Shown: positions 40,160-46,634 of the stretch, piece after piece
How positions within the stretch are numbered: position 1 is the stretch's first letter
Layout: every line of letters begins with the position of its first letter
Source: Cyanobium sp. WAJ14-Wanaka
Lineage (GTDB): Bacteria; Cyanobacteriota; Cyanobacteriia; PCC-6307; Cyanobiaceae
Assembly: GCF_024345375.1 (NCBI RefSeq)
Contig: NZ_JAGQAZ010000001.1
Location: 248,001-312,000 of the forward strand
Direction of reading: 5' to 3'
Length of the DNA stretch: 64,000 bases
Translations under genes and position numbers: made by a program
Notes under the pieces: generated by a model
What the model saw: the letters and a program-made list of their open reading frames with translations, nothing else
Databases searched by the model: none
Told to the model about the DNA's origin: nothing

Positions 40160-41278
40160 ATGTCAATTCTGCCCCAGCTGCGTCCGACTCCAGGCTCCCT
40201 TGATTCCCGCAGGCTTTCGGATCGGCTGGGCGATATGCCCAATAGCCTATTTCTCGCTGATGGTCGGGCTGATTGCAGTTTATCTGTAGTGGTGCTAAAG
40301 CCGAATCAGGTGTTCCTTCGTAACAACTTAAGAATCGAAGAGCTGAAGGAGCTTGTTGAAAGTGGTGATCCCTTTTGGCTTCGCATTGGTGGCCTTGGGC
40401 AGCCCCAATTAATCTCCAGCGTGTTGAGTTGCTGCGGAATTCCCGAGGTATTTAGGCCCCTACTGCTGGAGGTGCCCCAGATTCCACGGGTTGACTCCTT
40501 TGCCGAGGTGATCACGGTGGTGGTGCATCGCCTGCGCTTTGGCCATGATCCCCTCAATTTGGTGAGTGATCAGGTGGGGATGGTGCTCACCCACAAGATG
40601 CTGATCTCCATAGAAGAGGCTCCGAGTAAGGAGCCCTTCCCTGCCTTGACCGAATGGCTGCTCCATAAATCTCCAGCAGCTACGGCCGATGATCTAGATG
40701 ATCTGCTCCATTATTTGGTCGACAATTTGTTGGATGGCATCTTCCCGATGCTGGAGCAGATGGCTAGCCGCCTTGATGACCTGGAGGAATCTGCCCTCAG
40801 GGATCCGCGGCCGGGTGTTTTGAACCGTGCCTACCAATTGCGTATCAATCTGCGGCGCATTCGCCAGCAGCTCTGGCCCCTGCGCCATCAGATCCTGCTA
40901 TTCCTGCGCCAAAACCAACCGGTCATGGGGCCCGAGGCACTGCTGGGGTTTCAGGAGATGGCCCAGAACGTGGAACAGATTTTTGATAGCTGCGAAATTC
41001 TGCGTCACCAATGTGATGCCGTTACCGAGGCCCACATGGCCAGCAGTGGCAACCGCATGAACCAGATCATGAAAACCCTCACGATCGTTTCTTCAATTTT
41101 TGCGCCGCTCACCTTTATAGCCGGTATTTATGGCATGAACTTCGACAACATGCCTGAGTTGCACTGGCCCCACGGCTATCAAATCGCCCTCGTGTTGATG
41201 GGTGCCATAGCCACTATCATGACCACCATGCTTTGGCGCCGGGGCTGGTTTGAGGATTGGACCAGCCGCCGGCGTTAG
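40160..41278 (+). CDS. corA: CorA-family magnesium/divalent cation channel
   Basis: A 372-aa protein with a large cytoplasmic N-terminal domain, a long stalk helix (about 190-300), and two C-terminal membrane helices. The pore-signature YGMNFDNMPEL follows the first membrane helix (SSIFAPLTFIAGI), and the second ends in a basic tail. Funnel-shaped pentamers of this family admit Mg2+ or Co2+. Confidence 0.93.
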   Translation: MSILPQLRPTPGSLDSRRLSDRLGDMPNSLFLADGRADCSLSVVVLKPNQVFLRNNLRIEELKELVESGDPFWLRIGGLGQPQLISSVLSCCGIPEVFRPLLLEVPQIPRVDSFAEVITVVVHRLRFGHDPLNLVSDQVGMVLTHKMLISIEEAPSKEPFPALTEWLLHKSPAATADDLDDLLHYLVDNLLDGIFPMLEQMASRLDDLEESALRDPRPGVLNRAYQLRINLRRIRQQLWPLRHQILLFLRQNQPVMGPEALLGFQEMAQNVEQIFDSCEILRHQCDAVTEAHMASSGNRMNQIMKTLTIVSSIFAPLTFIAGIYGMNFDNMPELHWPHGYQIALVLMGAIATIMTTMLWRRGWFEDWTSRRR

Positions 41279-42821: not shown

Positions 42822-43808
42822 CTAGCTCCTTCCCCAGCGCTCACTGAGGTCCCATAGCTCACGGGCTAGTGCTTCGGATTTGGCCTCAGCACTGGGCTCG
42901 GATGGCCCAAATTCCAACCTGCCGGGGCCCAGCACCCTGTTGCTCCAGTAGCCAAAGCCAGGCCGTTTGTCCATGAAATTGCTTGCCAGCCCCGCCAGCA
43001 GTGCCCCCGCTTTTTGGGGTGTTTCGCAGACCCGCAGCAGGTCTCGGGCAGCGAAGGCAAAGAGGGCTTGGCCCAAGGGGTTGTGGCTGCGGCTGTAGCG
43101 AAAGAAGCCGCCGTCTTGGCGCGGGATCACCAGCCCCGGGCTCCAGGCCAGCACCTGAATTTGCCCCCGTTGTCTGCGTTCCAGCTCCTGGGCCATCAGC
43201 AGGTTGCAGAGCTTGCTGTCCTTGTAGGCCTTTTCGGCATTGAAGCGGCTGATTCCATCGAGCATCGGCGCCCCCGGGCCCTGGCGCAGCCCGTCTAGAT
43301 CGCCAAGCCCGGCAGCCTGGCCGACCTTGCCGCCAGGGGTGCTGGGGTCGTGCACCTCCGAGCCCGTAACCACCAGCCGCGGCTTGCTGGCCTGCTTCAG
43401 CAGGGGCAAAAGCTGCTGCAGCAGCACCTGGTGGGCCAGATGGTTTACGGCGATCGTCAGCTCAAAGCCCTGGGCCGACCATCGCGTCTCGGCGGCGCCG
43501 CTGTATTGCAGGCCTGCGTTGAGCACCAGGCTGTGTATGGGTTTGCCTGCCTGGAGCAAGGATTGGCCGCACTCCAGGACACTGCCCAGATCCGCCAGAT
43601 CGCAGATCGGCGTTTGGATCTGGCTTTCCAGGCCCTGGCCCAGGCCCGCAAGGCGGTTGCGCAGCCCAGTGGCCGTGGCCCCATCCCGGCAGGGCAGGGT
43701 TAGTTGATGGCCAGCTGCTAGCAACTGGCTTGCCGCTTCGAAGCCGATCCCGGAGCTGGCGCCGGTGATCAGGATGTGCAGGCTTGGCTGGTTCCCGTCA
43801 CTCCCCAT
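42822..43808 (-). CDS. Protochlorophyllide reductase-like short-chain dehydrogenase
   Basis: A 328-aa SDR. NADP motif ILITGASSGIGFEAA, NAGLQ, Tyr-Lys pair in KAYKDSKLCNLLMAQEL. It shares light-dependent POR features: SEVHDPSTPGGK, GLGDLDGL, DGISRFNAEKAYKDSK, and the C-terminal KSEALARELWDLSERW. The segment after the active site (WSPGLVIPRQDGGFFRY) differs from the usual YPGC region. It may be a POR paralogue with another substrate. Divergent from the GST gene 53 bp away. Confidence 0.75.
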   Translation of the reverse strand: MGSDGNQPSLHILITGASSGIGFEAASQLLAAGHQLTLPCRDGATATGLRNRLAGLGQGLESQIQTPICDLADLGSVLECGQSLLQAGKPIHSLVLNAGLQYSGAAETRWSAQGFELTIAVNHLAHQVLLQQLLPLLKQASKPRLVVTGSEVHDPSTPGGKVGQAAGLGDLDGLRQGPGAPMLDGISRFNAEKAYKDSKLCNLLMAQELERRQRGQIQVLAWSPGLVIPRQDGGFFRYSRSHNPLGQALFAFAARDLLRVCETPQKAGALLAGLASNFMDKRPGFGYWSNRVLGPGRLEFGPSEPSAEAKSEALARELWDLSERWGRS

Positions 43809-43861: not shown

Positions 43862-44707
43862 ATGGGCGATCAAGAGCTTGTGCTGCTGCACGCGGCACCT
43901 TCCTATTACTCGATGGTGGCCCGGCTGGCCCTGGTGGAGGCGGGCGTGGCGTTTTGCAGCCAATTAATAGATATCCATTTGGCCAAGCAGCAGCTAGGTG
44001 ATCGCTACCGCCAGCTCAACCCGGCGATGACGGTGCCGACACTTTGTGCGGCCGATTGGAGCTCCCCTGGGGCTCGGATCTGGACTGATAGCCGCGACAT
44101 CCTGACCTTTGCATCCCAGTCGGCTGCTGCTACCTGGCTGGATTTTTGCCCCAATTTGCGAGATCAGATTGCCGATGTGGTGGCGGGCCACTACGCCATC
44201 TCGATCGAGGACCTCACCTTTGGTAAGGCCATTCTCAGTAATCCCGTGCTGAAGCGGATCGTGCCGAAGCTGCTCCAATCGCTTGTCGACGGCCTGGAGC
44301 GGCGGGCAGAGGGGGCCGCCGATGGAGGGGCCAGCCTGCGGGCGAAGGCGCAGCAAAACCGGGAGAGACTTGCCTATTTCAGCCAGGGCAGCCAGCTGGA
44401 CAAACTCGATTTGATGCGGACTCAGGTGGGCAGCTATCTGGCTTCTTTGCCCCTGGTGACTGGGGGGCCAGGCCTGTTTGGCGATCGCCCCAGCAGCGCC
44501 GATGTGGTGGTGGCTGTGTTGTTTGCCCGTTTGGAGATGATCCAGGAGCTGGACCTGGAGGCCCGCCCCGATTTGCAGGCCTGGTGGCTGCAGTTCCAGC
44601 AGCGCAAGAGCTTCAGGCAGGCTGAAATTTGGACCCGCTTTCGCCGCCGCCGCTTTGTCCAGGCGATCTTTGTGGCGAAGCTGGGCCCCAGGCCAATTCC
44701 CGTCTAG
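43862..44707 (+). CDS. Glutathione S-transferase-like protein
   Basis: 281 aa from ATG at 43862. Thioredoxin-like N-terminus with LVLLHAAPSYYSMVARLALVEAGV, LNPAMTVPTL (cis-Pro) and WTDSRDILTF (Ser/Asp at the glutathione site), then an all-helical C-terminal domain that is longer than usual and ends in a basic segment. Function unassigned; the divergent SDR neighbour suggests a shared promoter region. Confidence 0.75.
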   Translation: MGDQELVLLHAAPSYYSMVARLALVEAGVAFCSQLIDIHLAKQQLGDRYRQLNPAMTVPTLCAADWSSPGARIWTDSRDILTFASQSAAATWLDFCPNLRDQIADVVAGHYAISIEDLTFGKAILSNPVLKRIVPKLLQSLVDGLERRAEGAADGGASLRAKAQQNRERLAYFSQGSQLDKLDLMRTQVGSYLASLPLVTGGPGLFGDRPSSADVVVAVLFARLEMIQELDLEARPDLQAWWLQFQQRKSFRQAEIWTRFRRRRFVQAIFVAKLGPRPIPV

Positions 44708-44725
44708 GGTTCGATCGACGGATCC

Positions 44726-44845
44726 GGCTCCCTGGAGCTGGTCAAACGAGGAAAGTGCGGTGAGGGGTTACCCAAATCCGCCGCTGTCCCGCAACTGTGA
44801 TGGGGTTGTGCCCCTTAGTCAGAACACTCGCCGTCTGTCTACCAC
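44726..44845 (+). promoter_or_regulatory. Cobalamin (B12) riboswitch
   Basis: Aptamer landmarks in order: GAGGAAAGTGCGGTG, then AAATCCGCCGCTGTCCCGC followed by AACTGT, and the B12-box-like AGTCAGAACACTCGCC. Spacing fits the class. A stem CTCGG/CCGAG at 44852-44867 close to the downstream ATG (44876) could act as the expression platform by blocking translation. The regulated genes are hupE-like and cbiM-like, consistent with B12 repression of cobalt uptake. Confidence 0.88.
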
Positions 44846-44875
44846 CTCGATCTCGGCGCGGACCGAGCATTGCCC

Positions 44876-45502
44876 ATGAAACGTTTTTCGGCGCCGTTGG
44901 CGTCCTTTTCTGCTGTTGCAACCCTGCTGCTTGCGGCGATTCCAGCCCAGGCCCACGGCTCAGCCGGCGCTGGCCTAGCTGGTGGGGGATTGGCTGGTGG
45001 CCTGATGCATCCCCTGATGGGGCTCGACCACCTCTTGATGCTGTTGGCAGTGGGCGCCGTAGGGGCATTTATTTCCCCTGCGCTGCTGGGCTGGGCCCTT
45101 GGCGGCGCCCTAGTTGGCGGGATGGTTGGCAGCTCTTTGGCTTCCTTCGGCCTCAATTTGCCGGCGGGTGAGCTGTTGGCGGCCCTAGCGATTGTGGCAC
45201 TGGGAATAGTCATTTTTGCCTCTGCCAAGGGACGCAGCATTACCTTCACCCCGGCGCTGGTGGCCCTGGGGGTGAGCTTTCACTCCATGCTCCATGGCCT
45301 GGAGGTCCCCCAGGACGGCAGCAGCCTTGGTTGGTGGATGGGTGCCCTAGCTGCTTCGGCGCTGGTGGCGGGTTGCTCCTATGGGGTCTGCAAATATTTT
45401 GCTAATCGGGGTATTACTCGCCTTGCAATTCCAGTTGCTGTGGGATTCACCCTTTCTGGGGTAATTCTCTCGGGCCTGGCCCTGGCGAGTGGTGGTATTT
45501 AG
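44876..45502 (+). CDS. HupE/UreJ-family cobalt/nickel transporter
   Basis: A 208-aa membrane protein with a cleavable or anchor-like N-terminus ending AQAHGSAG, then six or more hydrophobic segments. The family metal motif HPLMGLDHLLMLLAVG is present, as is SFHSMLHGLE. HupE/UreJ proteins move Ni2+ or Co2+; control by a B12 riboswitch favours cobalt. ATG at 44876 chosen over a TTG two codons upstream. Confidence 0.88.
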   Translation: MKRFSAPLASFSAVATLLLAAIPAQAHGSAGAGLAGGGLAGGLMHPLMGLDHLLMLLAVGAVGAFISPALLGWALGGALVGGMVGSSLASFGLNLPAGELLAALAIVALGIVIFASAKGRSITFTPALVALGVSFHSMLHGLEVPQDGSSLGWWMGALAASALVAGCSYGVCKYFANRGITRLAIPVAVGFTLSGVILSGLALASGGI

Positions 45503-45571
45503 TTAATTTATTTTTTCTATTTGTAATTTCGCCAAAGTTTCTCGCCGAAGTTTTTCGCAAACCCTAAAACC

Positions 45572-46234
45572 ATGCACATCCATCCCGGCATCCTTGCTGC
45601 TCCAAAGATTATTGGTGCTAACTACACCGCCCTAGTCACCCTTGCCGGTTTTGCGCCTGCCCTGCTCAAGAAGCCCCTGCTGCTTGTAAAGACCATTGCT
45701 GCAGCGTTGATCTTTTCGCTGCTGATGCAGGTTGTGCATTTTCCGGTTGGACCATCGGAGCTCCACCTAGTAGGGGCCTCCATTGTCTATTTTCTATTTG
45801 GTTTCTTGCCTGCCATGTTTGGCTTTGCCATTGGCTTGCTCCTGCAGGGCCTGGTATTTGAGCCCCAAGATTTGATGCACTTGGGTGTCAATACGCTTTC
45901 ATTGATCTTGCCTCTGATCGCCACCCATCAGTTGCTTGGCAAACGCTTTTTTGCCAAGGGTGAGAATGGCTTGGCGGTGAACTGGGCCCAAATTGTCAAA
46001 TTCGATGCCATCTACTACTCCGGTGTGGTGGTGATGGTGGGATTTTGGTTGCTGAATGGCAGCGAAGCGACTCCACTGCAGAGCTGGGCTACCTGGGCAA
46101 TCTCCTATCTGCCGATAGTTTTGATTGAACCTCTACTTACCTACCTGGCGATTAAGGCAGTTCAGGGTTCCAAGCCTGGCAGCTGGCTTCGCAATCTGAC
46201 TTCAGCGGGTTCCCTTAAGCTCCAGGGAAGCTGA
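45572..46234 (+). CDS. CbiM-like energy-coupling-factor permease (cobalt)
   Basis: A 220-aa membrane protein. N-terminus MHIHPGILAAPKI holds the His-rich metal-binding start typical of CbiM/NikM, followed by several membrane helices (LVGASIVYFLFGFLPAMFGFAIGLLLQGLV, LGVNTLSLILPLI, AIYYSGVVVMVGFWLL). No cbiN, cbiQ or cbiO follows, so partners must be elsewhere. 69 bp after hupE, likely in the same riboswitch-controlled transcript. Confidence 0.82.
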   Translation: MHIHPGILAAPKIIGANYTALVTLAGFAPALLKKPLLLVKTIAAALIFSLLMQVVHFPVGPSELHLVGASIVYFLFGFLPAMFGFAIGLLLQGLVFEPQDLMHLGVNTLSLILPLIATHQLLGKRFFAKGENGLAVNWAQIVKFDAIYYSGVVVMVGFWLLNGSEATPLQSWATWAISYLPIVLIEPLLTYLAIKAVQGSKPGSWLRNLTSAGSLKLQGS

Positions 46235-46274
46235 GATCTAGTTGAATTTCGGATGAGATAAGGGTTACTTGTAT

Positions 46275-46288
46275 CCGGCTTTTGCCGG
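46275..46288 (+). terminator. Weak hairpin after the cbiM-like gene
   Basis: CCGGC-TTTT-GCCGG, a 5-bp GC stem with a T4 loop about 40 bp after the stop, followed by a T/A-rich stretch. It could end the hupE-cbiM transcript. Confidence 0.35.
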
Positions 46289-46320
46289 TGGTAATACTTT
46301 GGTTTTGACGCTGCAGGAGG

Positions 46321-46336
46321 TTGGTCAATTGACCAA
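46321..46336. promoter_or_regulatory. 16-bp perfect palindrome
   Basis: TTGGTCAATTGACCAA is a perfect inverted repeat. After one G-T position, the symmetry continues with GAG/CTC outside. It lies in the 190-bp gap between the cbiM-like gene and the pilin-like frame. It resembles a dimeric repressor site more than a terminator. Confidence 0.45.
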
Positions 46337-46424
46337 TCTCTTTAAGCGTTTGTCCCCATGGGGTTTCCCGCGTTGCACCTTTTCATTTTGTCGGTTTTCG
46401 TAAATCAGCCTAATTTGTCTGGAT

Positions 46425-46634
46425 TTAGGCGTTGCCAAAGGCAACCTGGCAGGCGCTGTTTAGCACTTGTGCCTCCTGGGCACTGCTTGGTGCCTGGCCA
46501 TTGAGTAGGCCGGACTGACAATCGGCGTTGAGGCTGTAGTTATTGCCATCGGAGTTAACCACAAAGGTAATTGTGGATGTTCCGGTGGCCTGCACGCTGC
46601 CGAAAAGTAATTGGTAGTTGGTATTTGGAACCAA
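46425..46634 (-). pseudogene. Secreted/pilin-like C-terminal fragment, no proper start
   Basis: Minus-strand frame ending ...LNSACQVAFGNA. From TTG at 46634 it gives 69 aa, but coherent sequence continues upstream in frame (YLASINSAVNNAVSNNQTYI) to about 46778, where TAA closes the frame inside rpaB. No ATG or GTG occurs. Asn/Ser/Ala-rich composition with two Cys (NADCQSG, NSACQ) resembles minor-pilin or exported proteins. It is probably a truncated remnant that lost its signal or pilin N-terminus. Confidence 0.45.

Follow-up and report, generated by a model that had tools for sequence, protein, structure and literature searches.

A putative horizontally acquired cobalt permease of the stand-alone CbiM group behind a cobalamin riboswitch and hupE in Cyanobium sp. 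WAJ14-Wanaka

The window, the whole stretch of 64,000 nucleotides analysed here, contains a cobalamin riboswitch followed by genes for two metal permeases of different families, hupE and cbiM, and raises the question of how a CbiM with no CbiN, CbiQ or CbiO beside it came to stand there and what it does. The observation behind the original prediction is confirmed and its interpretation is partly supported: the pair of riboswitch and HupE is known from other cyanobacteria, and the interest of the locus lies in the stand-alone CbiM. The reading we regard as rather likely is that cbiM encodes a horizontally acquired cobalt permease lacking an ECF motor, situated in the place of a second hupE behind a B12-repressed hupE.

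The riboswitch and its expression platform

The aptamer occupies positions 44702 to 44849 of the forward strand, where the cobalamin model RF00174 of Rfam matches over its complete length (model 1-189) with 43.5 bits (gathering score 31.5, E 1.2e-07), and its core can be aligned with the riboswitches of three genomes of the same genus (G260, G301 and G302). The Rfam check therefore bears out the B12 riboswitch that had been proposed upstream of both genes, with the correction that the start given for it, 44726, falls inside the aptamer. The first bases of the aptamer (44702-44707) are also the last ones of an upstream GST-like open reading frame that ends at 44707, so that transcription of the riboswitch probably begins within this frame or upstream of it; a simple scan of 44500-46500 found no sigma-70-like promoter.

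Loop L5 of the aptamer (44787 to 44791, forward strand) reads TCCCG, which fits the UCCCG consensus described for this loop (PMC10653944), and the same letters are found in all 34 aptamers of the main comparison. Directly behind the aptamer, at 44852 to 44867 of the same strand, lies a P13/L13 hairpin, CTCGG-CGCGGA-CCGAG, with a stem of five pairs that ends 8 nt ahead of the hupE ATG; read from the letters, its loop (CGCGGA) and L5 can form five pairs with one bulged base. The stem-CGNGGA-stem element recurs in 40 of 40 riboswitches, 34 of them in the main test (24 of 30 listed loci, which are the best-scoring ones and not a random sample, and 10 of the genus, the window included) and the remaining six of the list in a wider search stretch. 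An ATG follows within 10 nt of the hairpin in 36 of the 40, and the four loci with no start ATG directly after it (L026, L027, L034 and L037) all belong to the six additional ones. The stem shows compensatory exchanges in the comparison of 34 riboswitches (A-T/G-C and C-G/T-A), and a P13/L13-like element arose in only 78 of 34000 mononucleotide shuffles. The hairpin is missing when the window leader is folded at minimum energy, and its support is accordingly comparative.

Pairing between L5 and L13 that stabilises P13 and hides the ribosome binding site is a published mode of translational cobalamin riboswitches (PMC10653944). With a hairpin that can pair with L5, stands 8 nt ahead of the hupE ATG and is kept throughout the comparison, control is probably exerted at translation here as well. 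Plentiful corrinoid would then bind the aptamer, L5 would pair with L13, P13 would be stabilised before the hupE start and HupE synthesis would fall, whereas under scarce corrinoid HupE would be made and would bring Co(II) through the inner membrane. A transcriptional mode or component may also operate, as a terminator-like site is found just inside hupE (44890-44904, forward strand), the predicted leader fold lacks P13, and in S. elongatus the peaks of polymerase seen at a riboswitch leader were taken to suggest that it pauses or terminates there (PMC3219970). Terminator-like sites are no commoner in the scan than expected, with three found against 4.1 in shuffled sequences.

The hupE gene and the place behind it

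The first gene of the unit, hupE (44876 to 45502, forward strand), encodes a permease of 208 residues that matches the HupE_UreJ family PF04955 with 73 bits (cut-off 23), in agreement with the HupE-like assignment made beforehand, and carries HPLMGLDH at residues 45-52, an instance of the HPxxGxDH motif of HupE/UreJ proteins (PMC7689651). Cyanobacterial hupE genes under B12 riboswitches, among them slr2135 of Synechocystis and genes of marine strains, have been described as serving cobalt uptake, and mutants are rescued by cobalt or methionine (PMC7689651, PMC4284471). The window gene has in common with these the B12 riboswitch or the cobalt role, the HupE family and the HPxxGxDH motif, so that the riboswitch-hupE half of the locus is ordinary. 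The view that the pairing as a whole is unusual holds for the type of CbiM, found in one of 400 genomes of the family, but not for riboswitch and HupE, a published combination. A sequence search of solved structures with HupE gave only a chance-level match, and a relation to defence systems was rejected, as PADLOC returned no match for HupE or CbiM.

What the window adds to the known arrangement is a stand-alone cbiM behind hupE, at a position taken by another hupE in two near relatives. In these two genomes, G260 and G301, the order is riboswitch-hupE1-hupE2, with a hupE2 of another type whose product has 35-36% identity with the window HupE. Identity with the first hupE is 44% for G260, G301 and G302, and the contig of G302 ends past this gene. 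The window genome has one HupE, as do G153, G300 and G302 among the 15 other genomes of the genus, and its cbiM occupies the place of hupE2. The simplest history is a gain of cbiM and a loss of hupE2, in either order; cbiM would have been acquired horizontally and have taken the place of the second hupE.

The second gene, cbiM (45572 to 46234, forward strand, 220 residues), starts 69 nt past the end of hupE, and the spacer has a GC content of 32%. It is possible, if somewhat unlikely, that the riboswitch governs hupE only and that cbiM is expressed independently: the P13 hairpin sits at the hupE start, a switch that acts on translation alone could leave the following gene untouched, and the AT-rich spacer might hold signals of its own for cbiM. 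Arguing for a joint unit, the genes are adjacent on the same strand, the spacer has no promoter-like site and no terminator-like site on the forward strand, the second hupE of the two near relatives lies at this position, and 11 of 17 relatives of the gene have a B12 riboswitch under 400 nt upstream of cbiM, on the same strand (L042, L044, L113, L115, L117, L119 to L123 and L126). Joint transcription of hupE and cbiM is the arrangement that these features suggest, and B12 may thereby act on cbiM too.

The next family-assigned gene past cbiM, on the opposite strand, is rpaB (NF045944, 349.6 bits against a cut-off of 330), whose match to a cyanobacterial equivalog model marks the host as a cyanobacterium. 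Contamination of the assembly was considered and rejected, since the contig that carries cbiM is 1.2 Mb long and the gene is flanked there by the riboswitch-hupE unit and rpaB; the assembly comprises 2.14 Mb in seven contigs and is 99.93% complete. A few genes upstream of the unit, at 40160-41278 of the forward strand, a transporter of the CorA family (167 bits) represents another possible route for divalent metals, and at 42822-43808 of the reverse strand lies the gene of an SDR protein that resembles light-dependent protochlorophyllide reductase (140.9 bits, far under the cut-off of 331.35).

Affiliation of the CbiM protein

The window CbiM, predicted as CbiM-like from the outset, scores 121.9-122.1 bits against the CbiM family PF01891 (cut-off 23.1), and it stays below the cut-off of the NCBIfam CbiM equivalogs, the best of which gives 63.5 against 173 bits. 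A structural model built from an input of five sequences (pLDDT 78.7, pTM 0.77, residues 1-4 under 50) retrieves in Foldseek the NikM2 structure 4m58 (TM 0.65) and the CbiM of CbiMQO, 5x3x_m (0.58), followed by other ECF S components, with weak E-values (best 7e-3) and a probability of 1.00 for the top three. With a family score above the cut-off and an S-component fold, the protein is a CbiM/NikM S component; a sequence search of solved structures gave no match at E 0.001.

Within the family the protein belongs to a separate group of stand-alone CbiMs. Its identity is 50-58% within its subgroup, 34-36% with the two proteins aligned from the other stand-alone subgroup and 22-26% with seven further CbiM/NikM proteins. 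Residues M1, H2 and H65 are invariant in 13 of 13 aligned rows, stand-alone and other CbiM/NikM alike, and the last of these is a further conserved histidine that we take to be a metal ligand. A metal ligand role has been described for the first two residues of CbiM/NikM (PMC6828968). The stand-alone rows have FxPxDLxxxxxN where the seven other CbiM/NikM rows have HGGLxTxGxN, and the window segment at residues 96-107, FEPQDLMHLGVN, fits the former. That cbiM is a non-functional remnant, as its single occurrence in the family sample might suggest, is very unlikely indeed, as the frame of 220 residues is full length, aligns with its relatives from end to end and keeps M1, H2, H65 and the FxPxDL segment.

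The nearest proteins found come from the proteobacteria Pseudomonas sp. LD120 (57% identity), Azohydromonas (54%), Rubrivivax (52%) and Leptothrix (52%), with a partial match in a Polaromonas metagenome-assembled genome (MAG), and plasmid-borne copies at 50-56% are found in Azospirillum, Vitreoscilla, Sphaerotilus and Ideonella. A first tree has 37 rows and leaves out the proteins in which no MHIx[EDP]G start was found (L005, L010, L081, L085, L087, L088, L091 and L092) as well as L009 and L011. In it 18 stand-alone CbiMs, the window included, split off at 100/100 from 18 other cyanobacterial CbiM/NikM proteins, and the other 17 members of the stand-alone group are all proteobacterial. The last row, L125, is annotated as CbiM and is followed by CbiQ; it falls outside the group on a long branch and its placement is unsure. 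The split recurs at 100/100 against 13 cyanobacterial rows in a second tree of 31 rows that also omits the most distant proteins (L003, L004, L006-L008 and L125), and both values come with a warning about long branches that join between groups. In the first tree the forks surrounding the window protein have weak support (94/88; 80/37), so that no donor can be named.

A profile of stand-alone CbiM matches one of 400 genomes of the family, which is the window's own, and in the order a CbiM occurs in seven of 299 genomes, the window's included, the six others having best matches of 184.5-192.5 bits against 121.9 for the window protein. Descent from the CbiM of order members was rejected, given this scarcity and an identity of 23-24% with three aligned others. 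Across the phylum the window CbiM matches 28 of 386 genomes, its own included, and the best-scoring other match is 33% identical; no relative was found among viral contigs. The GC content of cbiM (52.2% against a window mean of 61.8%, with 3.5% of windows as low) is only a weak sign of transfer, because the nearby ppk2 is equally low. The exclusively proteobacterial affiliation of the other members suggests that the gene would have crossed from Proteobacteria into the cyanobacterium.

Cobalt settings and the question of a motor

The setting of the relatives consistently involves cobalt. All 17 full-length relatives outside the window, which are those fetched from a wider pool (90 plasmid records and Proteobacteria at large, the partial L046 uncounted), are in cobalt settings, 14 near B12 riboswitches and three in nitrile hydratase operons. 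In addition to the 11 with a riboswitch close upstream, two (L112 and L045) have one about 1.6 kb upstream of cbiM, and in a further one (L043) the distance is about 5 kb and cbiM is surrounded by cobalamin genes (CobB/CobQ-like, tetrapyrrole methylase and CbiC). The remaining three (L114, L116 and L124) show no riboswitch in the stretch and have cbiM behind nitrile hydratase genes, ahead of which lies a gene for a GTP-binding protein; their alpha subunits contain CTLCSC in 3/3 cases, the signature of the cobalt type, CSLCSC being that of the iron type. In two relatives the cobalt setting consists of the riboswitch alone, one of them in an unannotated stretch (L122) and the other adjoining an annotated superoxide dismutase gene (L121). 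In Pseudomonas sp. LD120 (L042:6717-12583), two DUF2946 genes come after riboswitch and cbiM, and at a greater distance there is a TonB-dependent receptor, which could be the partner in the outer membrane for cobalt or corrinoid.

Import of nickel, or of both metals, instead of cobalt is quite improbable for the unit. HupE/UreJ and NikM relatives do include nickel importers (PMC7689651, PMC2667541), and the histidine of an SE[LV]H motif aligns with SVHL of NikM-like rows, but the window locus has a B12 riboswitch, the 17 relatives fetched are without exception in cobalt settings with no urease or hydrogenase genes beside them in annotated stretches, and the superoxide dismutase neighbour is a case directly under a B12 riboswitch. 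In the host genome two CobN/ChlH-type proteins and a CbiC make a demand for cobalt in corrin synthesis plausible, and the host probably makes its own corrin. Transport of cobalt by HupE and CbiM alike would fit this demand.

In contrast to the cobalt ECF transporter CbiMNQO (group I), of which at least one member of the order (L003) has the complete series of B12 riboswitch, cbiM, cbiN, cbiQ and ABC ATPase gene, the window unit shares the CbiM family and fold but has no CbiN and no dedicated CbiQ or CbiO, belongs to a separate group and has FxPxDLxxxxxN in place of HGGLxTxGxN. None of the three partners is among nine neighbouring open reading frames scanned, as had been noted from the sequence, and the suggested genome-wide search for cbiQ and cbiO gives a more differentiated picture. 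The genome has a single CbiM, no match for CbiN, no ABC ATPase above the cut-off for CbiO (45 matches, best 147.2 against 211.8 bits) and one protein of the CbiQ family (L111:4243-5160, C1 about 21.2-22.2 kb), about 270 kb from cbiM. The eight neighbouring frames of this CbiQ homologue encode Dus, DUF1823, an EngA-type GTPase, alanine-racemase-N, SepF, pyrroline-carboxylate reductase, a glycerol-phosphate acyltransferase and DUF3086; no ABC transporter ATPase and no CbiM was found among them, the EngA-type GTPase giving a weak P-loop cross-match to ABC_tran. A broken ordinary CbiMNQO was rejected as the origin of the gene on the strength of the two trees and the settings of the relatives.

These components of the host genome bear on the view that CbiM, as an S component, makes use of the T protein of the cell, the CbiQ homologue by the EngA gene, together with an ABC ATPase, in the manner of a mix-and-match ECF transporter. 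The CbiQ-family protein and the CbiO-related ABC ATPases are present, and green plants have a T/A module with cyanobacterial relatives, described in that source as having an unidentified substrate-binding subunit (PMC6828968). We nevertheless consider such sharing unlikely, given that the T gene has no adjoining ABC ATPase, that it lies far from cbiM, and that CbiM relatives occur in genomes without a match to the CbiQ family. A protein of this family (PF02361) was found in none of five whole genomes, those of L042-L046, four with full-length genes and one, the Polaromonas MAG, with a partial one, genome completeness figures not being given, against 10 of 14 control genomes that are positive. 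This absence is the strongest sign that the stand-alone group needs no T protein. Around the stand-alone plasmid copies no CbiN, CbiQ or CbiO is annotated in the PLSDB gene tables, which are incomplete, and other ABC transporter genes are annotated near cbiM in five relatives (L113, L114, L115, L116 and L119). To judge from these genomes, stand-alone CbiMs would function without a T protein, with a dissimilar partner as a further possibility.

Transport by ECF S components in the absence of a motor is debated. The window CbiM and its relatives resemble BioY, BtuM and solitary Cbi/Nik units in being S components that occur without a motor; BioY and BtuM are stand-alone ECF S components, and solitary Cbi/Nik S units were reportedly treated by Kirsch and Eitinger in 2014. 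Literature searches on CbiM without partners brought up, in the portions of the sources they returned, no description recognised as the stand-alone CbiM group.

Taken together, the second gene of the unit would encode a stand-alone CbiM of a proteobacterial group that imports Co(II) without CbiN, CbiQ and CbiO. We lean, by a small measure, towards the wider reading that the group marked by FxPxDL is an S component that escaped from its ATP motor and became self-sufficient, and that it crossed from Proteobacteria to a cyanobacterium into the hupE2 slot, bringing two unrelated cobalt permeases into one regulon. Stand-alone CbiM is a candidate cobalt supplier in B12 and nitrile hydratase operons, where six plasmid copies bear no more specific label than 'energy-coupling factor ABC transporter permease'. 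A group in which no CbiQ is found in the five genomes searched and every full-length relative fetched is in a cobalt setting makes the question of whether an S component needs its motor directly testable with one small gene.
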